Shown: in pieces, positions 9,949 to 60,047 of the stretch
How positions within the stretch are numbered: position 1 is the first letter of the stretch
Layout of the letters: each line of letters opens with the position of its first letter
Assembly (NCBI RefSeq): GCF_000375425.1
Contig: NZ_AQXG01000016.1
Coordinates: 1 to 60,190, forward strand
DNA from: Gracilimonas tropica DSM 19535
GTDB taxonomy: Bacteria; Bacteroidota; Rhodothermia; Balneolales; Balneolaceae
DNA length: 60,190 nucleotides
Reading direction: 5' to 3'
Program-made: the position numbers and the translations under genes
Notes under the pieces: generated by a model
What the model saw: only the letters and a program-made list of their open reading frames with translations
Told to the model about the DNA's origin: nothing
Database searches by the model: none

Positions 9949-10518
9949 ATGATATCGGAAGAATTACAAGAAATTATCGATGAAGCGGAAATGCACATGG
10001 AAGAAGCAACTGCATTTCTAAAGAAAGAGCTTTCACATGTACGAGCCGGAAAAGCGAATCCTGCTCTTTTAGAAGGCATTAAAGTAGAATATTACGGTTC
10101 CCAAACTCCTCTTCAGCAATTGGCTAATGTAAGTGCTCCTGAAGCCCGGCTATTGGTTGTTCAGCCCTATGACCGTTCCACGATGGAGGAAATTGAAAAG
10201 GCGATTATGTCGGCCGGGCTTGGCCTGAATCCTAACAATGATGGCGAGCGCATTCTGATCCCGCTTCCGGTTCTGACTGAGGAACGGCGCAAGGAATTGG
10301 TAAAACATTCCAAAGACATTGCTGAAAAAGCCAAGATCAGTATTCGAAACTCCCGTCGCGATGCTAATGACTCTATCAAAAAAACGGTGGAAAGCGAGTC
10401 CCTCTCCGAAGATTCCAAGTATGAAGCCGAAGAAAATGTTCAGCAGCTAACGGATTCATATACTGCCAAGGTAGACGAACTCCTCGAGAAGAAAGAAAAA
10501 GAAATAATGACCGTGTAA
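9949..10518 (+). CDS. frr: Ribosome recycling factor
   Basis: A 189-residue protein with the RRF phrases HVRAGKANPALL, VEYYGSQTPLQQLANVS, NPNNDGERILIPLPVLTEERRKELVK and the conserved C-terminal EEKEIMTV-like end. RRF, with EF-G, splits post-termination ribosomes. The start ATG at 9949 matches the usual N-terminus. It is followed 94 bases later by smc on the same strand, with a palindromic repeat between them. pyrH, tsf and rpsB, common neighbours elsewhere, are absent. Confidence 0.97.
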   Translation: MISEELQEIIDEAEMHMEEATAFLKKELSHVRAGKANPALLEGIKVEYYGSQTPLQQLANVSAPEARLLVVQPYDRSTMEEIEKAIMSAGLGLNPNNDGERILIPLPVLTEERRKELVKHSKDIAEKAKISIRNSRRDANDSIKKTVESESLSEDSKYEAEENVQQLTDSYTAKVDELLEKKEKEIMTV

Positions 10519-10609
10519 GTGTTACTGTGCCTCGGTGTTACGGTGTTAAGGCTTTCCTTGCATCAGCTTAACACCGTAACACTTTAGCACTTCAGACACC
10601 GTAACACCA
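10519..10609. repeat. GTGTTACGGTGTTA palindromic repeat, copy 1
   Basis: A 16-bp perfect inverted repeat (10535-10550 with 10567-10582) surrounds a 16-base loop. Partial outer copies of the same word flank it (10519-10525 and 10597-10608). It fills the frr-smc gap. Related copies lie at 15492-15574 and 16781-16852. There is no T-run, so it is not a standard terminator. Confidence 0.8.
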
Positions 10610-14560: not shown

Positions 14561-15493
14561 ATGAAAACTCGCTTTCTCTCTATTATTTTACTTCCCATCC
14601 TTTTTCTTAGCTGTGAGCCACAAACTTCACAACCGAGATTTGAGTCTCTCCCATTGTCGGATCAAACCATTTCTTTGCTGGGAGATACGCTAAAAACGGC
14701 TCCGCAGACATTACCGGAGCGATTACAAATTCGTATCGATTCATTAAGTGTGGAAGCGTTAGATGATGATCGTGTGATTGATCATCTGATCTGGGAAGCC
14801 CGAAAAGTAGCCTATGAAGGCGAATATAGACAAGCCGTGCAGTTATTTACCGATGCCATTCACCAATTTCCCGAAGAGCCAAGATTGTATCGCCACCGGG
14901 GACACCGATACATCACCTTGAGAGCTTTTGACCTGGCAATTCAAGATTTTCAGAAAGCGGTCCGGTTATTTGAAGGTCAGCAGGATATCACCGAACAGGA
15001 TGGTCTTCCGAATAAACAGAATACTCCATTAAGCTCCCTTCAAACCAACACTTGGTATCACCTGGGATTGGCTAATTATCTGAAAGGTGAATATGAACAA
15101 GCCAATCTTGCCTATGAAAACGGACTTCAGGTTTCCACCAATAACGACATGACCGTTGCTTTCTCCTATTGGAAATACATGACCCTCCGAAAATTAGGCA
15201 GAGATGTAGAAGCCGGAAATCTGCTTGAAACCATTTCTCCGAATATGGAGCTGATCGAAAATACCAGTTACCATGAATTGCTGATGGTCTTCAAAGGCAT
15301 CTTTACGCAGGAAGAACTCCTTTCTCAGGAAAACTCCGAATTGGATAACGCCACCCTGGGCTATGGACTCGGTTTCTGGCACGATATTAACGGACGAAGC
15401 GAACGAGCACAAAAGATCTGGCAGCAAGTCTACGATTCAAAGAACTGGGCAGCTTTTGGATATATCGCCAGCGAAGCGGAATTGGCGAATTAG
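14561..15493 (+). CDS. TPR-repeat lipoprotein
   Basis: A 310-residue protein with a lipoprotein signal (lipobox FLSC, Cys18) and several TPR-like helical pairs. One covers residues about 85-130 (YEGEYRQAVQLFTDAIHQFP, then LRAFDLAIQDFQKAV), and another about 165-195 (WYHLGLANYLKGEYEQANLA). TPR proteins act as protein-binding scaffolds; this one is probably anchored at the inner face of the outer membrane. No enzyme motif is seen and the partner is unknown. A palindromic repeat follows and the gene converges on metZ. Confidence 0.8.
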   Translation: MKTRFLSIILLPILFLSCEPQTSQPRFESLPLSDQTISLLGDTLKTAPQTLPERLQIRIDSLSVEALDDDRVIDHLIWEARKVAYEGEYRQAVQLFTDAIHQFPEEPRLYRHRGHRYITLRAFDLAIQDFQKAVRLFEGQQDITEQDGLPNKQNTPLSSLQTNTWYHLGLANYLKGEYEQANLAYENGLQVSTNNDMTVAFSYWKYMTLRKLGRDVEAGNLLETISPNMELIENTSYHELLMVFKGIFTQEELLSQENSELDNATLGYGLGFWHDINGRSERAQKIWQQVYDSKNWAAFGYIASEAELAN

Positions 15494-15574
15494 TGCTAAA
15501 GTGTTACGGTGTTATGGATTTTAGAATCAAACCATTAACACCGTAACACTCTAACACCCTCGCACCGTAACACT
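15492..15574. repeat. GTGTTACGGTGTTA palindromic repeat, copy 2
   Basis: AGTGTTACGGTGTTATGG (15500-15517) pairs with 15532-15550 with a one-base bulge. A further CACCGTAACAC half-copy lies at 15563-15573. It sits between the convergent TPR lipoprotein gene and metZ. Confidence 0.8.
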
Positions 15575-16730
15575 ATAAAGCTTGATCTACATCTTCCCAG
15601 ATATCTTCTATGTGTTCGAGTCCTACCGAAAGCCTAATCAATCCTTGGGTGATGCCAACTTTGGCTCGTTCTTCTTCGGAGAGTTTAGAATGGGTTGTTG
15701 AAGCGGGATGTGTAGCAATCGTTCGGGAATCGCCGAGATTTGCGGTTAGCGAAAGCATCTTAATGGAATCCAGGAAATTACGTCCGGCTTCCAGTCCACC
15801 TTTGATGCCAAACGTTACAATTCCCCCGCCCATGGCCATTTGTTTTTTGGCGATTTCATAAGCGGGGTGACTTTCCAAAAAAGGATATTTCACCCACTCC
15901 ACCTGATCATGGTCTTGCAGTCGCTGAGCAATTTCAAGCGCCGTTTGTGAATGTCGCTCCATACGGATCTGCAAAGTCTCGAGACTCTTTGATAACATCC
16001 ACGCGTTGAAAGGCGAAAGGCAAGGTCCCGAATGACGTGCAAAAGCTTCCACTTCGTCAATCAATTCTTGTTTCCCAACAATAGCTCCGCCCAAACCACG
16101 TCCTTGTCCGTCGATGTATTTAGTGGCGGAATGAATCACCAAGTCTGCTCCAAATTCAATGGGGTTCTGGATGATCGGCGTCGTGAAGCAGTTGTCCACC
16201 ACATAGATCAAATCATGCTTTTTAGCGATTTCGCCGGCTTTCTCCAGATCAATAATATCCAGCGCCGGATTGGAGGGCGTTTCCAAATACAAGATTTTTG
16301 TTTCTGGGGTGATGGCATCTTCCCATTCATCTAAATCTGTTGCCGATACATAGTTTGTTTCAATATTCCATTTCGGAAAGATCTGCGTAAACAATTTATG
16401 GGTTGAGCCGAACACCGATCGGGAAGCCAGCACTTCATCTCCGGCGTCCAGTAAAGCAGCAAAAGTAGAGAACACGGCGGCCATTCCTGAGGCTGTCGCC
16501 CAGCCTGCTTCTGCTCCTTCCAGCATAGCCATTTTGTTGATGAATTCATCCACGGTGGGATTAGAATATCGGCTGTACACATTCCCGTCCTCTTCCCCGG
16601 CAAACATTGCTCGCATGTGCTCAGCATTATCAAACACATAGCTGGAGGTCATGTAGATGGGCGTGGCGTGTTCGCCAAAGTTTGTACGTTCGGTTTGAGT
16701 GCGAATAGACTGCGTTTCTTTACGCTTCAT
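15573..16730 (-). CDS. metZ: O-succinylhomoserine sulfhydrylase (Cys/Met metabolism PLP enzyme)
   Basis: A 385-residue fold-type I PLP enzyme. The PLP lysine is K204 in HSATKYIDGQGRGLGG, the DGQGR form typical of MetZ rather than the NGHSD form of cystathionine gamma-synthase. YSRYSNPT (52-59) and LETPSNPALDI (149-159) are also conserved. It makes homocysteine from O-succinyl- or O-acetylhomoserine and sulfide. The cysE-cysM pair in the same window supplies the neighbouring branch of sulfur assimilation but is not linked. No SAM riboswitch was recognised upstream. Confidence 0.9.
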   Translation of the reverse strand: MKRKETQSIRTQTERTNFGEHATPIYMTSSYVFDNAEHMRAMFAGEEDGNVYSRYSNPTVDEFINKMAMLEGAEAGWATASGMAAVFSTFAALLDAGDEVLASRSVFGSTHKLFTQIFPKWNIETNYVSATDLDEWEDAITPETKILYLETPSNPALDIIDLEKAGEIAKKHDLIYVVDNCFTTPIIQNPIEFGADLVIHSATKYIDGQGRGLGGAIVGKQELIDEVEAFARHSGPCLSPFNAWMLSKSLETLQIRMERHSQTALEIAQRLQDHDQVEWVKYPFLESHPAYEIAKKQMAMGGGIVTFGIKGGLEAGRNFLDSIKMLSLTANLGDSRTIATHPASTTHSKLSEEERAKVGITQGLIRLSVGLEHIEDIWEDVDQAL

Positions 16731-16780: not shown

Positions 16781-16852
16781 AGTGTTAAAGTGAGAAGGTG
16801 TTACGGTGTTATAGTTTACGAAGCACTATAACACCGTAACACTGAAACACTA
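16781..16852. repeat. GTGTTACGGTGTTA palindromic repeat, copy 3
   Basis: A perfect 18-bp inverted repeat: 16798-16815 pairs with 16825-16842 around a 9-base loop. Outer AGTGTT/AACACT words (16781-16786 and 16845-16850) can also pair. It lies between the metZ start and the end of the M14 peptidase gene, overlapping the latter's stop. Confidence 0.85.
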
Positions 16853-19351
16853 CTGTACCATAAATACTGCATTCCCAATCATCAGTTTTCCATTATGCCA
16901 GAATCCACGGAAAAATGGATTGTCGACCATGTAAACCACACTGCCACGACCCATATTTTGAACGCCGAACACTAAGCTATGCTCGAGATCTTTTTTGGCT
17001 TCATGTCCGATAAAACCACTTCGATGTGCACCGGGTTTTGCGGCTCCTACATTCCAGCCGTTATCCAGGTATTCGTAAGCAGAAGCTCCTGTCTTAAGCG
17101 ACAGGTACGTATTTCCATAACCAAAAGCGAGGGGATGCGTGTTATCCAGCGACACCTCAAAAATACTGCCGGGATTGAAGCTTGAAGTTCTTTCGCGTGA
17201 GGCATTTCCGTACGTTTTCAATTTGTCTTCAGGTTCTTCTTCCCCAACTTCTTCATCGCTGGATTTCCGTTTCAACGCAAAGCCCTCTTTGTCCACCAAC
17301 AAGCCATTCGCACCACCGACGGCAATCAGTTTTCCGCCGTTTTGGACCCACTCTTTGATGTCATCTAACTCGCTATCACTCACAGCACTGCCATACATTT
17401 CAGGAAGAATGAGTACATCATAATCATCCCAATTTACCGAACGGACATCATCCACATTGATCATGTTCAGCGGGTAGTTGATCTGTTGGTCAAAGTAGTT
17501 CCAGATGTGTCCTACCATGTTGGAGTTGGTTCCATCGCCGGAAAGCAGCGCTACTTTTGGAGCCGTCAGATATCGCACCGATGAAGAGCCAAAGTCCTTA
17601 CCGGAATCTACAAAACCGGTAGCCACCGGAGTTACAATTCGGTTTAACAAACCGGCTTCATCTTTTACGATCTGGTCGAATTTCGCTCCCAGTTTTTCAT
17701 TTCCATTTCGGGTGATGATTAACGTACCGGGCGCGTAGTTTTTCCCATTTACAGAAAAGGATTCTTCAGCATACCGTACCGCTACGCCTTCATCCAGCAG
17801 ACGCGCTAAATAACGCAGATCTTCCAGTGAATTCCATTTCGCGAGATAGGCATACGGTTTCTGAACCGTCGGCGTTAATTCATCCTGCACTTCCATGGAG
17901 ATCGGCTCCGTATTCACCTGTCCGTTGATCGCATATCCATCCACGCCATAAGCATAATGCATTTCCCAAGCGGTGATGTCGTAGGTCAGCGAATCGGCCA
18001 GTTCCGGTTTCGGTTCAAACAAAACCCGCACCAATGTTCCCTTAGGCTGATAGGTGCTGATCACATAATCGCCTTCTTCCACATTCACACGACCGGTTTC
18101 GCCGGTGCTATAATCGTATCCATTGGCACGGGTTGAACCGGAAGCCTGACCAAATTCGATCTCCTGATTCACCAAATACCGCAACAGCCGAGACACCTTA
18201 TCGGGATTACTGCTCTTCTTCACAATAAACGTCTTGTACTCGCCCGATCCATTTTCGATCGCATTGTTGAAATAGTTTGAAAACTCATTGATCACGCGCT
18301 CTGAATTTTGAGCCGCTACTTCTACCGTCGATAATCCACTGGTGGTGTGATGGGTAAGTCGGTCGAGCAAGGTTAACGTATCGCCTTCTGCCGTGATTAC
18401 CCCTAATCCAGATGTACTGTGTCCTGCCTGCTCGTAAGTCATCCCGATCGCGCCATTGAAGGTTGGCCAGGTATCACCATAACTTGGGTAAAAGAGGTCA
18501 AAAACTTCTTTGGTGAAATAGAGCCAGTTCTCCTGATCAAAATATTCCGCGTGGTTTTTCCCGATCATGGTCTGAAGCTCTCGCTGCCAGTCGGTGATCG
18601 CCAAATGAAAGGGTTCGGCGGCTGGAGCAAAATAGTACGGAGAATTGATGCCCTGCTCGTGGAAATCGACGTGTACGTGCGGCATCCATTCGTTATACAC
18701 CCGAATGCGCTGCTGACTTTCCACCTGCGTTTGCCACGCCCAATCCCGGTTCAGATCAAAGTAATAGTGATTGGTACGTCCACCCGGCCACGGCTCGTTG
18801 TGCTCGCGTGTATCCAGGTTCACATTTCGCTCTTCGCCCACCACACTTCGGTACCAGTTCACATAGCGATCTCGTCCATCGGGATTGACCATCGGGTCCA
18901 TCACCACAACGGTATTTTCCAGCCATTCGGATTTCTCGGTTAGTAATTTGTACACCGTACTCATCGCTGCTTCACTGGAAGAAGTTTCATTACCGTGTAC
19001 ATTATAACTCAGCCACACAATGGCTTTTTGGTTTTCGGTGGGAGAACCGGATTCGAGTCCTGCCAAACGCAGGTTATTAAGTCGAATCTCCTCGATGTTT
19101 TGCTGATTTCCTTCGGATGAGATCACCGCATACACCAACTCACGACCTTCATTGGTTTTTCCATATTCAGAAAGCGTCACCAATGGAGATTCTTCTGCCA
19201 CATGCTGGAAATAGTTCAACACTTTATAGTGAGGAGTCCACTGATCGCCCAGTTCGTAGCCCAAGAATTCGGCCGGGGATTGAAGTTGAGCCCAGCTTGA
19301 GGCCGTCCATAAAAAGGCTGCTAAAAACGTAAGTACAAATGATCTCTTCAT
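16850..19351 (-). CDS. Secreted M14-family zinc carboxypeptidase with C-terminal GATase-like domain
   Basis: An 833-residue protein with a Sec signal peptide (cleavage near WAQ, residue 22). The peptidase M14 domain has zinc ligands H119 and E122 (HGNE) and H231 (DFHEQG), and the likely catalytic glutamate E307 (MTYEQAG). NPDGRDRY and NRDWAWQ are family landmarks. The C-terminal part (about 590-830) has alternating strands and DVLILPEMYG-type phrases like a ThuA/GATase1-like fold. It is probably a periplasmic or secreted peptidase. Its ATG overlaps the stop of the NTF2-like lipoprotein gene by one base (TAATG), suggesting translational coupling. Confidence 0.88.
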   Translation of the reverse strand: MKRSFVLTFLAAFLWTASSWAQLQSPAEFLGYELGDQWTPHYKVLNYFQHVAEESPLVTLSEYGKTNEGRELVYAVISSEGNQQNIEEIRLNNLRLAGLESGSPTENQKAIVWLSYNVHGNETSSSEAAMSTVYKLLTEKSEWLENTVVVMDPMVNPDGRDRYVNWYRSVVGEERNVNLDTREHNEPWPGGRTNHYYFDLNRDWAWQTQVESQQRIRVYNEWMPHVHVDFHEQGINSPYYFAPAAEPFHLAITDWQRELQTMIGKNHAEYFDQENWLYFTKEVFDLFYPSYGDTWPTFNGAIGMTYEQAGHSTSGLGVITAEGDTLTLLDRLTHHTTSGLSTVEVAAQNSERVINEFSNYFNNAIENGSGEYKTFIVKKSSNPDKVSRLLRYLVNQEIEFGQASGSTRANGYDYSTGETGRVNVEEGDYVISTYQPKGTLVRVLFEPKPELADSLTYDITAWEMHYAYGVDGYAINGQVNTEPISMEVQDELTPTVQKPYAYLAKWNSLEDLRYLARLLDEGVAVRYAEESFSVNGKNYAPGTLIITRNGNEKLGAKFDQIVKDEAGLLNRIVTPVATGFVDSGKDFGSSSVRYLTAPKVALLSGDGTNSNMVGHIWNYFDQQINYPLNMINVDDVRSVNWDDYDVLILPEMYGSAVSDSELDDIKEWVQNGGKLIAVGGANGLLVDKEGFALKRKSSDEEVGEEEPEDKLKTYGNASRERTSSFNPGSIFEVSLDNTHPLAFGYGNTYLSLKTGASAYEYLDNGWNVGAAKPGAHRSGFIGHEAKKDLEHSLVFGVQNMGRGSVVYMVDNPFFRGFWHNGKLMIGNAVFMVQ

Positions 19352-24746: not shown

Positions 24747-24816
24747 CTCATTGAGTAGCTCTGGTATCTCGTTGAGTAGCTCCGCTGCTCAACGCAACCC
24801 GGAGGCTCCGCCTCCA
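24747..24816 (+). repeat. Double-hairpin REP, left flank of the 24818 transposase
   Basis: Hairpin 1 is 11 bp with loop TCC (24770-24780 with 24784-24794, one G-T pair). Hairpin 2 is GGAGGC/GCCTCC, loop TCC (24801-24806 with 24810-24815). A partial extra copy of the CATTGAGTAGCTC arm lies at 24749-24761. The element ends one base before the transposase stop codon. Confidence 0.85.
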
Positions 24817-24817
24817 A

Positions 24818-25357
24818 TCATCCCGAAAATAACGTAACAGGAAGTACCCAATTTCCCTCACCTGCATAATTCCGTGCAGACGAATACTTCCAATGTTCAG
24901 CACACTCCACAAAGCCCGCTTTCACTGGATTATAATGCACGTACTGAATCTTCTGATTCATCATTTTCGCATTCGAAATTAGTTTCGGGTGTACCCCTGC
25001 TTGCCAAACCTGATACTCGCTATCTTTATGATTCGAATGTTTATAAGCTTTTAATTGAGACAGAAAATAATTTCGTTGATGTAGCTTCAGGTAATCAATA
25101 ATACACCTTGCTGTAAATGACTTGAACTTTCCCATTTTATGAGGCAACCCTTTCCCTTCTACAATCATGTGAAGGTGATTATGCATGATCACATATGCGT
25201 AAACTTTTACAGTTTCTTTGTTTTGAAGATACTTAACAGATTCAATTATAATCTCGCTAATATCTTGATAAGCAAATAACGATATCCCTTTTACAATACT
25301 ACTGGTTATTAAATAAGGATAATACTCTTCTTTGAATTTGTACCTTGTTTTGCCCAT
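24818..25357 (-). CDS. REP-associated tyrosine transposase (RAYT, Y1/IS200-like)
   Basis: A 179-residue Y1 transposase-fold protein. The HUH motif is in AYVIMHNHLHMIVEG (HNHLH) and the likely catalytic tyrosine in IQYVHYNPVKAGFV, both typical of the RAYT (TnpA-REP) group. RAYTs are single-copy domesticated relatives of IS200/IS605 transposases that bind and cleave REP hairpins as single strands. The two flanking inverted REPs fit this. Its stop codon abuts the left REP. It may be active or merely maintained; nothing in the sequence decides this. Confidence 0.88.
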   Translation of the reverse strand: MGKTRYKFKEEYYPYLITSSIVKGISLFAYQDISEIIIESVKYLQNKETVKVYAYVIMHNHLHMIVEGKGLPHKMGKFKSFTARCIIDYLKLHQRNYFLSQLKAYKHSNHKDSEYQVWQAGVHPKLISNAKMMNQKIQYVHYNPVKAGFVECAEHWKYSSARNYAGEGNWVLPVTLFSG

Positions 25358-25410
25358 GACTTTTTTTAGTTAGTTAGAGTGATCTCAAAACCATTCCTTA
25401 CAATCTTTTT

Positions 25411-25458
25411 TGAGGCGGAGCCTCTTGCGCGCATTGAGCAGCTGAGCTGCTCAACGAG
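25411..25458 (-). repeat. Double-hairpin REP, right flank of the 24818 transposase (inverted)
   Basis: Read on the minus strand it repeats the left copy: hairpin 1 is 11 bp (25432-25442 with 25446-25456, one mismatch), then a GCGCGCAA linker, then hairpin 2 GAGGC/GCCTC (25412-25416 with 25420-25424). Confidence 0.85.
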
Positions 25459-25551
25459 AAATGGATAAATGGGGGAATTACATCTGTTACTGAAAAACTC
25501 CGTACTTTTGGTTATGCTATTAACAGATTTCAACAAAACCCGGTCCTCACT

Positions 25552-27183: not shown

Positions 27184-27332
27184 ACATTTACCCTCCCAAG
27201 AAGGGAAATTACTTTGGTCAGTTTGAAGCTGGATTTGAAGAAACATCCACTGGGAAGAAGTCTGCATTAACCAATAACTAACCACCACGTCTTCCTCTCC
27301 CGGGAGAGGAAACAAAGGAGAGGGTAGAATGT
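27184..27332. repeat. DUF559-associated inverted-repeat element 1L
   Basis: About 149 bp with related ends: ACATTTACCCTCCC (27184-27197) and, inverted, GGAGAGGGTAGAATGT (27317-27332). It contains a perfect CCTCTCCC/GGGAGAGG palindrome (27294-27309). Its last 40 bases before the end (27286-27325) are repeated identically at 27922-27961. Confidence 0.7.
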
Positions 27333-27399
27333 TGCCTCTACTCAACAATTTGACCTTCTCCCGGATTTTATCATCTTAGAAAGAAAACAACGGGTACAA

Positions 27400-27780
27400 A
27401 TGAGCAAGAGATTACCAATCCTACCGTATCGGCAAGATCTAATTCAGAAAGCCCGCTGGCTACGAAAGCATTCCACTCCTAGAGAGATCGAAATCTGGAA
27501 AGCGCTGAAAGGCCGGCAAGTTTTAGGTTATAAATTCAGGAGACAACAACCTATTCACCGTTTCATTGTTGATTTCTACTGCAGAGAACTCAAACTGGCA
27601 ATCGAAATTGACGGACGATCTCATGATTTTAAGATTAAGGCTGATCTGGAGCGTCAGCATATGATTGAACAGTTTGGCGTCAGTTTTTTGCGATTCAGTG
27701 AGGGCGATGCCCGGAATTATACAGATTCGGTGGTGGGCGAGATTGAGCGGTGGATTCAAGTACATTTCGAAAGTAAGTAG
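27400..27780 (+). CDS. DUF559 protein, Vsr-like PD-(D/E)XK fold (module 1)
   Basis: A 126-residue protein of the DUF559 family, related to the very short patch repair endonuclease Vsr and other PD-(D/E)XK nucleases. Visible landmarks are LGYKFRRQQPIHRFIVDFYC with D58, ELKLAIEIDG with E69 and D71, H75, and the C-terminal VSFLRFSEGDARN strand-helix. D58, E69, D71 and H75 occur at identical positions in the second copy at 39057. The cellular role of DUF559 is not established. The gene lies alone between two structured repeat elements. A nuclease acting on those elements is a hypothesis only. Confidence 0.85.
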   Translation: MSKRLPILPYRQDLIQKARWLRKHSTPREIEIWKALKGRQVLGYKFRRQQPIHRFIVDFYCRELKLAIEIDGRSHDFKIKADLERQHMIEQFGVSFLRFSEGDARNYTDSVVGEIERWIQVHFESK

Positions 27781-27794
27781 TGAAGGCTTTAGCG

Positions 27795-27968
27795 ACATTC
27801 ACCCACCCCTAAATCCCCGCCCGAGCGGGGAGGCTCTTTGGTTATATTCGATGCTGAAATTGGTTGAAATTGATAGCTTTTCATAGGCTAAATTATTTGA
27901 ATTGGATTTAGATTTAACCAACACGTCTTCCTCTCCCGGGAGAGGAAACAAAGGAGAGGGTGGGATGT
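27795..27968. repeat. DUF559-associated inverted-repeat element 1R
   Basis: About 174 bp, ends ACATTCACCCACCC (27795-27808) and inverted GGGTGGGATGT (27958-27968). It has an internal TCCCCGC/GCGGGGA hairpin near 27814-27831, and the 40-base block at 27922-27961 identical to 27286-27325, including CCTCTCCCGGGAGAGG. Confidence 0.7.
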
Positions 27969-37350: not shown

Positions 37351-37390
37351 AAATCCGTAGGGGCAATTCATGAATTCCCCCTACGGATTT
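37351..37390. repeat. GTAGGGGCAATTCATGAATT-type REP palindrome before mnmE
   Basis: A 40-bp palindrome with one mismatch (left half AAATCCGTAGGGGCAATTCA), centred at 37370/37371 and ending 26 bases before the mnmE ATG. It belongs to the family clustered around the transposase gene at 55160. Confidence 0.9.
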
Positions 37391-38818: not shown

Positions 38819-38992
38819 ACTGCCCTCCCTGCAAAATTAACGAGTTAATTTTCCTGTCCCTCCCGGAGGGACATAGGGTTCTTGCCCTAAGTAACTCTAT
38901 TTAGTAAAGAGAATTAATTTACCATAGCAAGAACCTATCTCTCTTTGGAGAGAGACCGATTTCAGCTCGCTGGAAATCAGAGAGAGGGCAGT
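38819..38992. repeat. DUF559-associated inverted-repeat element 2L
   Basis: 174 bp with perfect 9-bp terminal inverted repeats ACTGCCCTC/GAGGGCAGT. Internal hairpins in order: AAAATTAA/TTAATTTT, TCCCTCC/GGAGGGA, then after a spacer TCTCTC/GAGAGA and GATTTC-AGC/GCTGGAAATC (one bulge). AGGGTTCTTGC and GCAAGAACCTA form an inner inverted pair. Confidence 0.85.
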
Positions 38993-39056: not shown

Positions 39057-39434
39057 ATGGGGAATGACCAATCACACCATCATTACAATAAAAATTTAAA
39101 ACCCGTTGGACGAACTTTACGAAAGAATATGACCAAAGCAGAAGTTTGCCTTTGGAAATATGTATTAAAAGAAAACCAAAGAGGGTATACTTTTAACCGG
39201 CAACGACCTGTACTTAATTACGTTGCTGATTTTATGTGTAAAGAGCTCAAGCTGATCATTGAGGTGGATGGTAGCACACATGACCATCCAAAAGCATTTA
39301 AAAAGGACTTGGAGAGGCAACGACAATTAGAAAAAGCTGGGTTCACCGTTTTGCGTTTTACCAACAAAGATGTGCTGAAAAACATGGACTCGGTAATTCA
39401 GAAGATCGATAAAGCAGTTAAAGCATTGGAGTAG
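39057..39434 (+). CDS. DUF559 protein, Vsr-like PD-(D/E)XK fold (module 2)
   Basis: A 125-residue DUF559 protein. GYTFNRQRPVLNYVADFMC (D58), ELKLIIEVDGSTHD (E69, D71, H75) and FTVLRFTNKDVL follow the same register as the copy at 27400, while the rest has diverged, so they are paralogues rather than a recent duplication. A good ribosome binding site (GAGG, 39047-39050) sits 6 bases before the ATG. It lies between elements 2L and 2R. Biological role unknown. Confidence 0.85.
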   Translation: MGNDQSHHHYNKNLKPVGRTLRKNMTKAEVCLWKYVLKENQRGYTFNRQRPVLNYVADFMCKELKLIIEVDGSTHDHPKAFKKDLERQRQLEKAGFTVLRFTNKDVLKNMDSVIQKIDKAVKALE

Positions 39435-39450
39435 TAAACCCTGTCTTTTG

Positions 39451-39627
39451 ACTACCCTCCCTGCAAGCAACAGCAAGCTGTTTTTGCAGTCCCTCCCGGA
39501 GGGACATAGGGTTCTTATCACTAGAAACATAATTCGAGGAGGGTAACAGACTATTTCATAGCAAGAACCTATCTCTCTTTGGAGAGAGACCGGATTTAGC
39601 TTTGCTATAATCCAGAGAGAGGGCTGT
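39451..39627. repeat. DUF559-associated inverted-repeat element 2R
   Basis: 177 bp, ends ACTACCCTC and inverted GAGGGCTGT. Same order of hairpins as 2L with changed stem bases: a TGCA-rich stem at 39471-39489, TCCCTCC/GGAGGGA, TCTCTC/GAGAGA, and GGATT-TAGC/GCTATAATCC. The blocks GTCCCTCCCGGAGGGACATA and AGCAAGAACCTATCTCTCTT are identical to 2L. Confidence 0.85.
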
Positions 39628-54113: not shown

Positions 54114-54128
54114 TATGGACTAAACTGA

Positions 54129-54325
54129 CGATCCTCCCTGAAAAATCAGTGAACTGATTTTTCTGTCCCTCCAGAGGGACACAGGTTCTTTGCTTTGGCA
54201 AGATGTTGGTTATCAAACTAAACTTTAGAACTAAGCAAGAACTTATCTCTCTTTGGCGCCTGCTTGCCGAATAAGGTAAGAGAGACCGGATTTAGCTTCG
54301 TCCCGTGCATACGGGAAGAGAGGAA
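54129..54325. repeat. Orphan DUF559-type inverted-repeat element
   Basis: Homologous to elements 2L and 2R but without a DUF559 gene beside it. It retains AAAAATCAGT/ACTGATTTTT (perfect stem), GTCCCTCC/GGAGGGAC, GGTTCTT...AAGAACTTATCTCTCTTTGG and GGATTTAGC. The TCTCTCTTT hairpin loop carries an insertion of about 24 bases (54256-54279) and the right end is altered. It occupies most of the nhaC-nth gap (321 bases). Confidence 0.75.
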
Positions 54326-54434
54326 CGATGTTGACTTCATATCAGCTCTACAATTCAACCTGCGCATCTAACTTCAAACCCCTACCTTCAAAGCGCACTG
54401 ATAACTGTTTACTGCTAACTGATCACTAATATAC

Positions 54435-55142: not shown

Positions 55143-55182
55143 AATCGCGTAGGGGCAATTCATGAATTGCCCCTACGCGATT
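55143..55182. repeat. Perfect 40-bp REP palindrome at the 3' end of the 55160 transposase gene
   Basis: Left half AATCGCGTAGGGGCAATTCA is exactly complementary to the right half. The transposase stop codon (55162-55160) is the TGA at the palindrome centre, so the REP encodes its last six residues. Confidence 0.95.
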
Positions 55183-55741
55183 TATTAAAATATTTATCCT
55201 TTTCCCACAATTGAGGATTCTTTTCAATGTATTCCGTGATTTTATTCAATGATTTTTGATTACGAATGATGTGCTCATAGTAATTTCTTTGCCAACAACT
55301 ACTCCCATTCAATCCAAATCTATTATTTATTTCTTTAGATACATTCATTTTATACCAGCCCACAATTTTAGACAAATACATTTGCCGCCTTTCTTTTCTA
55401 TAAGTCTCATGATCAATAATTCCCAACCGTAGGGGTAATTCATGGATTGCCCCTACGGTTGGGGTGTGTTTTTGGGTAACTTCAATGATTCCGTGAACGT
55501 GATTCGGCATTATCACGAAGGCAGGAATTCGAACATAATCATATTGTATCGGCATTCTCAGCCAATATTTATAAGCTACATTCCCCAGTTCATTTTTCGC
55601 CATCATTCCATTTTCAATGTTACCAAAGATAGCTTCCCGGTCTTTCGTGCAAATTGTCACGAAATAATATCCCGGATTTGAATAATCGTAGGATTGCAGT
55701 CGAATCGATTTTCGGTTATTCTTTGGCTTGTAATCTTTCAT
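55160..55741 (-). CDS. REP-associated tyrosine transposase (RAYT), second family
   Basis: A 193-residue Y1 transposase-fold protein. N-terminal YSNPGYYFVTICTKDREAIF, the HUH motif in AFVIMPNHVHGIIEV (HVH), and the likely catalytic tyrosine region QRNYYEHIIRNQ match the RAYT group. Residues about 95-105 (VGAIHELPLRL) are the in-frame translation of a REP palindrome inserted after the HUH motif, and the last residues are encoded by another. It is not closely related to the protein at 24818. Whether the insertion leaves it active is unknown. Confidence 0.87.
   Translation of the reverse strand: MKDYKPKNNRKSIRLQSYDYSNPGYYFVTICTKDREAIFGNIENGMMAKNELGNVAYKYWLRMPIQYDYVRIPAFVIMPNHVHGIIEVTQKHTPTVGAIHELPLRLGIIDHETYRKERRQMYLSKIVGWYKMNVSKEINNRFGLNGSSCWQRNYYEHIIRNQKSLNKITEYIEKNPQLWEKDKYFNKSRRGNS
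55422..55463. repeat. REP palindrome inside the 55160 transposase gene
   Basis: A 42-bp palindrome with two mismatches (left half CCCAACCGTAGGGGTAATTC...). It keeps the reading frame on the minus strand. Confidence 0.9.
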
Positions 55742-55763: not shown

Positions 55764-55805
55764 TGTATTTGTAGGGGTAATTCATGAATTACCCCTACAA
55801 ATACA
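55764..55805. repeat. Perfect 42-bp REP palindrome upstream of the 55160 transposase gene
   Basis: Left half TGTATTTGTAGGGGTAATTC... exactly complementary to the right half. It lies 22 bases upstream of the transposase start. Confidence 0.95.
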
Positions 55806-57988: not shown

Positions 57989-59956
57989 TTGTTAGCACTC
58001 GAAAACATAACGCTGCACCTTGGCGAGCGCACGCTACTGGATGGCGTCAGCACGTTCATCAATCCCGGTGAGCGCATTGGTCTTGTGGGACCGAATGGCG
58101 CCGGTAAATCAACCCTTCTCAAAATTATCATGGGCATTATGGAGCCTGATGGAGGGAGCATTGCATTGGCAGGGGAAGAAACACTTGGGTACCTCCCACA
58201 GGATGGCGTAGATCCGGACTTCACCCTAACGGTTTTAGAGGAAGTGGAAACGGCCTTTTCAGAATTATTTGAGCTTGAAATGAAGGTGAAGGGTATTCAG
58301 GAAAGGCTTTCTCAAGCGGATCATCAAAGTGATGAATACAAAAAACTGATGCAACAATATGGGGAACTTCAAACCAAGCTGGAGTCTTCCGGATTATATG
58401 AACTGCGCTCTGAAGTGGAAAAAGTATTAATGGGACTTGGATTCACCGAGGAAGATTTTCATCGTAAGACCTCGGAATTCAGCGGAGGATGGCTGATGCG
58501 AATTGCCCTGGCTAAATTGCTACTTCGCCGGCCAACCTATCTTCTTTTGGATGAACCGACCAACCACCTCGACATCGAATCGCTGCAGTGGATGGAGAAT
58601 TTTCTGAATAACTATGAAGGGGCGGTAGTCGTAGTTTCTCACGATAGAGCATTTCTTGATACGATTACTAACCGGACGCTGGCTTTACGCCGCGGTAACA
58701 TTTCTGATTATGCCGGGAATTATACCTTTTATGAAAAGAAATGGGCCGAAGAGCGTGAGCTGCTCCTGAATGCCAAGAAAAATCAGGAAAAAGAGATCAA
58801 GCAGACGCAAGAATTCATCGATCGCTTTCGATATAAAGCCTCCAAAGCCAGTCAGGTGCAAAGCCGTATCAAGCAGCTCGAAAAGATGGAAGAAATTGAG
58901 ATCGAAGAAGAATTGGACGATGTCTCCTTTCAGTTTCCCGAGCCCGAGCGCAGTGGACAGGTAGTGATGAAGCTCGAAGATCTCCACAAAAGCTACGACG
59001 ATAATGTAGTGTTTGACGGCATTGATTACGAGATCGAACGGGGTGATAAAATTGCGGTGGTTGGTCCTAATGGAGCCGGTAAATCAACCTTAATACGGGT
59101 TTTGGCTGGGATGGAACCTTTCCAAAGCGGCAAACGCATTGAAGGACACAACGTAACAGTGAACTATTTTGCACAGCATCAGGCAGAGGAACTGAACCCC
59201 ACAAGAGATGCACTCGAAACATTGCAGGATGCCGGTTCCAACCAAAAAGAAAGTCGGCTCCGGACGATCTTAGGCTGTTTTCTTTTCCGGGGAGATGATG
59301 TTTTTAAGAAAGTGAAGGTACTTTCAGGGGGAGAAAAAAGCCGGCTGGCGCTGGCAAAAATGCTTCTGTCTCCCGCCAATCTGCTTATTTTTGATGAGCC
59401 GACAAACCACCTGGATATGAGCAGTAAGAACATTCTGCAACAGGCTATTCAGCAGTACGAAGGTACCTGCCTGATCGTATCGCACGACCGGGATTTCCTG
59501 GATCCCATTGTAAATAAAGTACTGGATGTACAGCCTGGATACATCAAAACGTATTTGGGGAATGTCTCCTATTACCTTGATAAAAAGCGGGAAGAAGCAG
59601 AAGCTAAGGATGCAGAAACTTCACCCCAAAAAGAAGAGCAGGAGAACAATCAGCTTTCCCGAAAGGAACAGCGGCGTATTGAAGCTGAGCAGAGAAATGA
59701 ACGCAATCGCCGAACCAAACCTATCCGTCATAAGATCGAAGCGGTGGAAAAGGAAATCGAAAAAATGGAATCTCGTAAAATGGAGATCGAGGAAGCTATG
59801 GCTCAACCTGATTTCTATGACGATGAGGAAAAAGTGAAAAAATTCTCATTAGAATATGACCAACTCAAGGCCGTCCTTACAGACCGATATTCGAAGTGGG
59901 AAGAATATCAGCAGCGACTGGAAATGATTGAAGAAGAGTTAAGCAGTGAGCAGTGA
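57989..59956 (+). CDS. ABC-F family ATPase
   Basis: A 655-residue soluble protein with two ABC domains and no membrane segment. Walker A GPNGAGKST is at 34-42 and again in the second domain (VVGPNGAGKSTLIR). Signature motifs are SGGW and LSGGEKSRLALAKM, and both Walker B motifs are followed by DEPTNHLD. A charged interdomain linker and a coiled-coil C-terminal domain rich in Lys/Glu resemble Uup/YheS types. ABC-F proteins act on ribosomes. The start is TTG. The last codons and the stop lie in a heptamer tandem repeat. Confidence 0.93.
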   Translation: MLALENITLHLGERTLLDGVSTFINPGERIGLVGPNGAGKSTLLKIIMGIMEPDGGSIALAGEETLGYLPQDGVDPDFTLTVLEEVETAFSELFELEMKVKGIQERLSQADHQSDEYKKLMQQYGELQTKLESSGLYELRSEVEKVLMGLGFTEEDFHRKTSEFSGGWLMRIALAKLLLRRPTYLLLDEPTNHLDIESLQWMENFLNNYEGAVVVVSHDRAFLDTITNRTLALRRGNISDYAGNYTFYEKKWAEERELLLNAKKNQEKEIKQTQEFIDRFRYKASKASQVQSRIKQLEKMEEIEIEEELDDVSFQFPEPERSGQVVMKLEDLHKSYDDNVVFDGIDYEIERGDKIAVVGPNGAGKSTLIRVLAGMEPFQSGKRIEGHNVTVNYFAQHQAEELNPTRDALETLQDAGSNQKESRLRTILGCFLFRGDDVFKKVKVLSGGEKSRLALAKMLLSPANLLIFDEPTNHLDMSSKNILQQAIQQYEGTCLIVSHDRDFLDPIVNKVLDVQPGYIKTYLGNVSYYLDKKREEAEAKDAETSPQKEEQENNQLSRKEQRRIEAEQRNERNRRTKPIRHKIEAVEKEIEKMESRKMEIEEAMAQPDFYDDEEKVKKFSLEYDQLKAVLTDRYSKWEEYQQRLEMIEEELSSEQ

Positions 59957-60037
59957 GCAGTGAGCAGTGAGCAGTGAGCAGTGAGCAGTGAGCAGTGAGC
60001 AGTGAGCAGTGAGCAGTGAGCAGTGAGCAGTGAGCAG
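59942..60037. repeat. Heptamer tandem repeat (AGCAGTG), about 13.7 copies
   Basis: 96 bases of perfectly repeated AGCAGTG. It begins in the last codons of the ABC-F gene (encoding the final Ser-Ser-Glu-Gln and the stop) and ends 4 bases before the next lipoprotein start. A copy-number-variable tract by its perfection and length. Confidence 0.97.
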
Positions 60038-60047
60038 AAAAATGATT

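Follow-up and report, generated by a model that had tools for sequence, protein, structure and literature searches.

In this work, we describe two units, each a DUF559 gene between structured repeats, in a 60,190-nt stretch of DNA (the window, by which we mean the whole stretch that was analysed). We propose that they are mobile units in which the gene for a putative nuclease is bounded by intrastrand-triplex hairpins (triplex motifs, TMs), with a logic like that of RAYT/REPIN systems. We give this reading a probability of roughly 60%; the nuclease activity, the recognition of TMs and the route of copying are what we infer. At the level of sequence comparison, we have been able to demonstrate the architecture of the units, the pairing of repeat family with nuclease clade, dispersed TM-only copies, presence and absence of units among genomes, and in-frame insertion with TM tails at the outer edges. 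DUF559, BoxC/TM repeats and whalefall-1 were each known already; the link between enzyme and repeat is the new part, and we found it in no paper. The open literature searched, with subscription literature outside its scope, contained no link between DUF559 or YcjD and BoxC/TM in its accessible text (including PMC12907096, PMC9403480, PMC2864571, PMC3733652, PMC2267715, PMC1189080, PMC12817139, PMC3943268 and PMC4666352), and a word search of the main text of PMC4666352 returned neither DUF559 nor ycjD.

Two units in the window and the motif at their ends

The first unit is laid out as an earlier note on this DNA had claimed, with a 149-nt element at 27184..27332, 67 nt, a DUF559 open reading frame at 27400..27780, 14 nt and a second element at 27795..27968, all on the + strand. 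The 5' element closes with inverted ends, ACATTTACCCTC...GAGGGTAGAATGT (from the sequence and a repeat search), and its right half is a TM with a hairpin at 27292-27311 and a tail to about 27325; the TM detector found no reverse TM in this element. In the 3' element, the detector placed a reverse TM at 27805-27831, and a forward TM runs from 27928 to about 27961. The repeat search also bore out a 40-nt block that is identical at 27286-27325 and 27922-27961. This block is part of a 66-nt repeat (91%), to which the likeness of the two elements is confined. In a search of the 3.83-Mb genome that allowed up to 3 mismatches, the 31-nt core of the 40-nt block was matched at these two places alone (a reversed control pattern gave 0 matches), so the family of unit 1 looks small in this genome.

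The second unit, likewise as claimed, has elements at about 38819..38992 and 39450..39627, the latter a direct copy, around a DUF559 frame at 39057..39434 (all +). Its 5' element comprises a reverse TM (38827-38873), a central stem and a forward TM from 38938, and its 3' element has a reverse TM at 39458-39505 and a forward TM from 39572. Rfam RF01762 (whalefall-1) matches the forward half of both elements above its gathering score, at 38935-38989 (54.3 bits) and 39569-39624 (44.9 bits). The two genes encode 126 and 125 amino acids and match Pfam DUF559 with E values of 5.6e-28 and 1.5e-34; the second belongs to a nuclease clade with whalefall-type flanks. When upstream and downstream flanks were compared, the direct-repeat score was 54 for unit 1 and 90 for unit 2; relative to a null of 1500 mismatched flank pairs, unit 1 lies above the 99th percentile (31.5) but below the maximum (58.5).

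The window is one complete contig of the 3.83-Mb genome, in which four DUF559 matches were found. Among the DUF559 records listed, the closest with a name come from Gracilimonas and Balneola, which makes the genome probably one of Balneolaceae. Every one of its four DUF559 genes is flanked on both sides by direct copies of a structured element (about 150-230 nt). The sequence family of the element differs from pair to pair, and several different nuclease-repeat pairs coexist in this genome. The earlier note had proposed a search for copies of the element alone, and such copies exist, both here and dispersed in relatives: the unit 2 element occupies 14 places in the genome, 12 of which, beyond the unit itself, adjoin none of the four DUF559 matches, and RF01762 also matches 5 orphan copies. 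One element-only copy lies in the window at 54125..54331 (+), with a reverse TM at 54125-54187, a forward half at 54240-54331 and no adjoining DUF559 match. If a TM is defined simply as a hairpin with a mirrored tail, 8 are present in the window, 7 of them in the two units and 1, at 54136, in this orphan.

Predicted DNA folds give the elements two arms around a central stem. Each arm has a purine-arm hairpin, a linker (short or with a second hairpin) and a tail mirroring the purine arm, and the order within a TM is pyrimidine arm, loop, purine arm, linker and tail. Repeats of the BoxC type have been known from E. coli since the 1990s. Judged by its sequence, the motif of the elements is the intrastrand triplex motif (TM; BoxC/PIT) of that organism: it has the hairpin with a third strand mirroring the purine arm, and it is dispersed and multicopy, with some copies in frame within genes. 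This identity, and the fact that part of the element is Rfam whalefall-1, had been overlooked by the earlier note. Its description of the elements as palindromes was right in that they are real and structured, but each is an inverted TM pair and not one palindrome. A covariance model built from 16 whalefall halves matches the reverse halves of the unit 2 elements on the opposite strand (25.6 and 18.7 bits), which identifies the element as an inverted pair. Unlike the isolated sRNA of the Rfam family, whalefall-1 is here half of a DNA repeat.

The mirrored tail was also evaluated statistically. Among 600 hairpins near 173 DUF559 loci, a mirror match of the tail beat a direct repeat in 227 cases versus 107 (p = 5e-11), as against 140 versus 122 with shuffled tails; at 700-1400 nt from the loci, there were only 55 hairpins (mirror 18, direct 11). 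In 49 whalefall-family units, the tail matches the mirrored arm with 6.24/7 versus 5.57 for the direct arm, a value that was reached in 0 of 2000 tail permutations and that partly reflects the shared descent of the units (53 of 119 model matches entered this test, and 49 had a clean hairpin). According to the main text of Holder (2015; PMC4666352), the E. coli motif forms triplexes in vitro, and the carrier of BoxC/PIT/TM repeats was still unknown in 2015. In other genomes of the family (L069, L072, L050 and G034), whalefall units also stand in convergent orientation (+ then -), with a gap of about 30 nt or with the gene between them, an arrangement that differs from that of the window.

Other repeats were also seen in the window. 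A RAYT-like frame at 24818-25357 (-), with a Pfam Y1_Tnp match just below the cut-off, lies between 51-nt inverted repeats that are 82% complementary (24767-25459); a similar repeat was recognised by eye in G032 and G188, at the position described below as site 1. Four near-identical, GTAG-tagged, REP-like palindromes (GTAGGGG..AATTCATGAATT..CCCCTAC) occur at 37356-37385, 55148-55177, 55428-55457 and 55770-55799. Inverted and direct repeats of the TAACACCGTAACAC type form three clusters (10518-10603, 15492-15578 and 16781-16863), and a tandem AGCAGTG repeat is found at 59942-60044, near the contig end.

The AlphaFold2 model of the gene 1 product (mean pLDDT 87.6, pTM 0.80) agrees with the earlier view of DUF559 as a Vsr-like nuclease fold. 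Its best match is a Neisseria DUF559 structure (3hrl, E 1.1e-4), followed by the EDxHD homing endonuclease I-Bth0305I (3r3p, 8.7e-4) and, more weakly, by Vsr (1vsr, 7.5e-3; 1cw0, 3.5e-2). A profile search gave the same first and second place to the Neisseria protein (4.2e-31) and I-Bth0305I (6.1e-7). Residues E29, D58, E69, D71, H75 and R98, among others, are invariant in 14 aligned sequences, and we regard the product as a putative nuclease of the Vsr/EDxHD fold. In the accessible text of a Thermosynechococcus paper, a DUF559 gene is already classed with the EDxHD homing endonucleases, and that of the open literature searched yielded no report of cleavage, binding or transposition by DUF559.

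DUF559 genes and triplex motifs in other genomes

Using TM detectors and locus labels that were set after data had been seen, we found a TM no farther than 300 nt from 139 of 173 DUF559 genes, compared with 3 of 322 control segments. On at least one side, this holds for 73/93 loci of family f1, where 43 of 58 genomes carry DUF559, and for 66/80 loci of other taxa, a sample kept from at least 578 confirmed DUF559 relatives. TMs flank the gene on both sides in 35/93 and 29/80 loci respectively, and control segments of 300 nt, 900-1200 nt away, contained a TM in 2/178 (family) and 1/144 (other taxa). At 34 of the 173 loci, the detector found no TM. Direct flank repeats exceeded the null 99th percentile at 51 of 90 loci of family f1 (38 of them above the null maximum) and inverted ones at 16 of 90 (none above the maximum), and among 74 testable loci of other taxa the 99th percentile was exceeded by 24 direct and 13 inverted repeats; clipped loci were left out of these tests (3/93 and 6/80). 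The earlier note had held that the association would be chance if most close homologues lacked flanking repeats, and in these two samples it withstood that check. A chance association was rejected on the core confined to its two copies in unit 1, the null percentiles and the near-zero occurrence of TMs in control segments. Plain terminators were also rejected, as a mirrored tail is not expected of them and the control segments are near zero.

By record titles, TM-flanked DUF559 genes are found in Bacteroidetes, Chloroflexi, cyanobacteria, Nitrospirae, Neomarinimicrobiota, Thermotogae and Pelosinus. The simplest form, with one TM per side in inverted orientation, occurs in Flavobacterium and Pontibacter. 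TMs also adjoin the DUF559 loci of Azospirillum, where the five loci compared in A. brasilense/TSH58 (L242-L246) all carry the unit and include no empty site. Ten further standalone loci of the phylum gave 2 positives within 600 nt with an earlier detector and 7 anywhere in the locus with a later one. Direct repeats around DUF559 genes are longest in L098, L029 and L023, at 300-409 nt, and each of these contains several hairpins, as if elements had multiplied in tandem.

Furthermore, the repeat follows the enzyme and not the genome, since flank similarity tracks nuclease identity. When 89 loci were compared in 3916 pairs, a flank score >40, taken as similar, was found between genomes in 43/87 pairs whose nucleases are at least 65% identical, in 21/171 at 55-65% and in 3/3570 below, these pairs including orthologous positions; of the same-genome pairs below 55% identity, 0/84 shared an element. 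On a tree of 93 nucleases, 13 loci labelled for whalefall-type flanks (the criterion being a match to the model, close to the gene, with at least about 27 bits) need 4 changes versus 12.4 when shuffled, with 0/500 shuffles as low, and one nuclease clade has such flanks in 10/10 members; L093 was left unlabelled, its 27.5-bit match being partial and farther off. The clade and permutation tests carry the relatedness of the sequences in them. In RAYT/REP systems, the repeat likewise follows the enzyme.

Repeat and nuclease also co-occur across genomes. RF01762 is present in 27 of 58 genomes of family f1 (25/43 with DUF559, 2/15 without), with up to 60 copies per genome and 10 copies in one of the two that lack DUF559. 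A TM pattern of another subtype occurs in 24 of 148 phylum genomes, and DUF559 is found in 22 of these 24 versus 56 of the 124 negatives (p = 1.3e-5); outside family f1, the figures are 9/10 and 51/119 (p = 0.0045). Two phylum genomes without DUF559 have one hit each. Of the 133 hits, 22 are no more than 500 nt from a DUF559 match among those listed, where 0.13 would be expected. The reversed pattern had 0 hits in phylum genomes, and one reversed-sequence control is uninformative because reversal breaks the order of the arms.

In E. coli, a TM lies between ycjD (DUF559) and fabI; it is clear on one side of ycjD only, downstream. Of 5426 E. coli genomes, 3361 match the ycjD region over at least 80% of the query, and the median number of TM-like places per genome is 17. 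Of a spread of 60 records, 59 were counted (one plasmid row was left out): genomes with a ycjD-linked TM had 13-28 TM places (median 21, n = 37) and those without had 1-16 (median 8.5, n = 22). The difference coincides with E. coli lineages and can do no more than suggest a link. After sapF, either ycjD and its TM or an efflux operon was seen, the one replacing the other (L251, L252 and L253), and as genomes without ycjD carry the efflux operon there, these are not clean empty sites. By Holder's count, E. coli K-12 has 23 TM copies (PMC4666352, main text).

Empty sites and in-frame insertions

Empty sites, which the earlier note had hoped to find with exact boundaries in sister strains, were seen in related genomes, but base-exact boundaries between close strains were not obtained. 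At site 1, between a ppx/gppA-like gene and an M28 peptidase-like gene (both named by eye), about 1090-1107 nt are found here versus 137-175 nt in G187, G046, G040 and G022. A unit is present at this site in G188 and absent from G032 despite very similar flanks, and homologous units lie elsewhere in G187, G040 and G046. In L227 (G188), the two flanking elements hardly differ, by eye, along about 200 nt, of which some 40 nt lie outside the TMs; this suggests recent duplication or conversion. Site 2, directly after an mnmE-like gene, holds a solo element in G055 and element-gene-element in the window; in eight genus members, no element was seen by eye in the stretch of roughly 200 nt or more. 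A unit of G034 is absent in G005 (1016 vs 134 nt), and the genus search around G147 gave no second genome.

A set of apparently fused DUF559 genes, intended as a negative control, proved to consist of in-frame insertions: DUF559 domains inside long open reading frames are TM-bounded units through which the reading frame stays open. All 12 units examined had TM-like sequence at one end or both, recognised by the detector in 9 and by eye in 3. The earlier note had overlooked this in-frame insertion of units into housekeeping genes, which the predicted frames indicate. Pfam identifies the hosts as LeuRS (at two different sites), MetH (between two B12 domains) and N-formylglutamate amidohydrolase and, among restriction-modification proteins, HsdR, HsdM, a type ISP enzyme and a DNA methylase. 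Stop-to-stop frames place DUF559 before a PLP enzyme resembling IlvA in Winogradskyella (L149 by Pfam, others by eye) and before QueG and AroK (by eye), all of these as predicted fusions only. In the inserts of 10 proteins, Pfam (E 1e-8) finds only DUF559 and no intein HINT splicing domain, and Rfam found no intron family in the window; no intron or intein was seen around the units.

At the outer edges of the in-frame inserts, the TM tails point outward, the left one C-rich and the right one G-rich. Related genera have empty alleles of metH and leuS. The two halves of metH are 28-73 nt apart in 18 of 20 other genera with a match and about 490-530 nt apart in G091, and those of leuS are 19-133 nt apart in 21 of 24 others, with larger or partial gaps in G209, G230 and G211. 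The same metH site is occupied in two genera, as is the same leuS site, a pattern that agrees with homing but also with old inheritance followed by loss. Inspection by eye of metH, leuS, G188/G032 and G005/G034 revealed neither a target-site duplication nor a base-exact junction; at metH and leuS, a target duplication is unreadable because the host linkers differ.

The proposed unit, its rivals and its meaning

The comparison with RAYT/REP drawn in the earlier note holds for architecture, clade pairing and dispersed orphans: in both, a gene is bounded by its own palindromic repeats (REPs or REPINs in the one case), inverted pairs occur as orphans and enzyme and repeat are paired by clade. The enzyme fold is unrelated. 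RAYTs are Y1 (HUH) transposases, whereas DUF559 is Vsr-like, of the PD-(D/E)XK type, and Pfam finds DUF559 and no Y1_Tnp in the unit genes. With EDxHD homing endonucleases, the units share the I-Bth0305I match in fold and sequence and the occupation of one site of conserved genes in two genera each, but they end in TM hairpins and many are intergenic. Rickettsia palindromic elements are palindromic repeats translated in frame inside genes, as DUF559-TM units are; to our knowledge, they contain no nuclease gene. The E. coli TMs resemble those described here in having a hairpin with a G-rich third strand and in being dispersed, intergenic and in some cases inverted pairs, but they were described without any enzyme, and their authors, in the main text, found no mobility activity near TMs (Holder, 2015; PMC4666352). 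The unit lacks what defines a RAYT, an intein or an intron-borne homing element; its mode of action is one that we propose.

The earlier note had suggested that nuclease and flanking repeats form one spreading unit. Architecture, clade pairing, orphans and empty sites are in its favour, while cutting or binding of the elements, and the force behind their spread, belong to the proposed mechanism. In that mechanism, the nuclease would recognise its own TM in folded, single-stranded form, at a replication fork or in a cruciform, and make a nick or break at the TM or at the target. Repair of the break may then copy the whole unit, in a homing-like way that would include the same site in related genera, or copy the TM pair alone to new places, as with REPINs. 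In Balneolaceae, where each end is an inverted TM pair, recombination between the direct copies could leave a solo element.

The main rival explanation is that TMs spread or arise in some other way (replication slippage or other transposases) and that DUF559 is a host nuclease that repairs or trims the TMs beside it. The Caulobacter DUF559 protein VsrA is SOS-linked and, in the accessible text of its report, interpreted as a mismatch repair enzyme, TMs in E. coli are tied to unstable, deletion-prone loci (Holder, 2015; PMC4666352, main text), and an E. coli genome has a median of 17 TM-like places, yet ycjD is one gene and is absent from many genomes. A host repair enzyme accounts poorly for a repeat family that follows the nuclease clade, for TMs that are the outer ends of in-frame units in metH and leuS, and for the several nuclease-repeat pairs that coexist in one genome, and we consider this explanation unlikely. 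Even less can be said for placing the units in restriction or defence islands, with DUF559 as a restriction-type nuclease and the repeats as recombination scars. Such islands would suit the in-frame insertions in restriction-modification genes (L200, L201, L205 and L209 by Pfam; L207 by eye), but leuS, metH and N-formylglutamate amidohydrolase (and, by eye, ilvA, queG and aroK) are hosts too, and no methylase partner was apparent by eye among the frames beside the window units; this reading is very improbable.

The elements might instead be RNAs (the whalefall-1 sRNA) or terminators that serve the DUF559 gene. Whalefall-type halves do show base-pair covariation, with a change on both sides in 8 of 13 pairs, and the accessible text of the describing paper rates whalefall-1 a certain RNA. 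On the other hand, many copies lie away from DUF559, as inverted pairs on both strands, and an RNA hairpin does not account for the mirrored tail; moreover, according to the main text of Holder (2015; PMC4666352), purine-motif triplexes cannot form in RNA and the E. coli motif has neither promoter nor terminator activity. A purely RNA reading was rejected on the orphan inverted pairs and the mirrored tail, and a role as RNAs or terminators of the gene is the most remote of the readings weighed here.

In summary, a mobile unit built on a DUF559 nuclease and its TMs would give one explanation for three orphans: the DUF559 family, with its at least 578 relatives, the BoxC/PIT/triplex repeats and Rfam whalefall-1. 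The odds seem to us about even on the wider proposal that DUF559 nucleases drive the bacterial triplex-repeat (BoxC/TM) family across phyla, as a new mobile class with folded triplex ends that is translatable, whose units home into essential genes as inserted domains and whose orphan TMs scatter like REPINs. The question can be tested in E. coli K-12, in which ycjD and TM copies coexist. If the proposal is true, the origin of the puzzling E. coli-type triplex repeats would be explained, by a mobile unit whose enzyme fold and end structure are unlike those of familiar transposons and that is able to sit in frame inside leucyl-tRNA synthetase.
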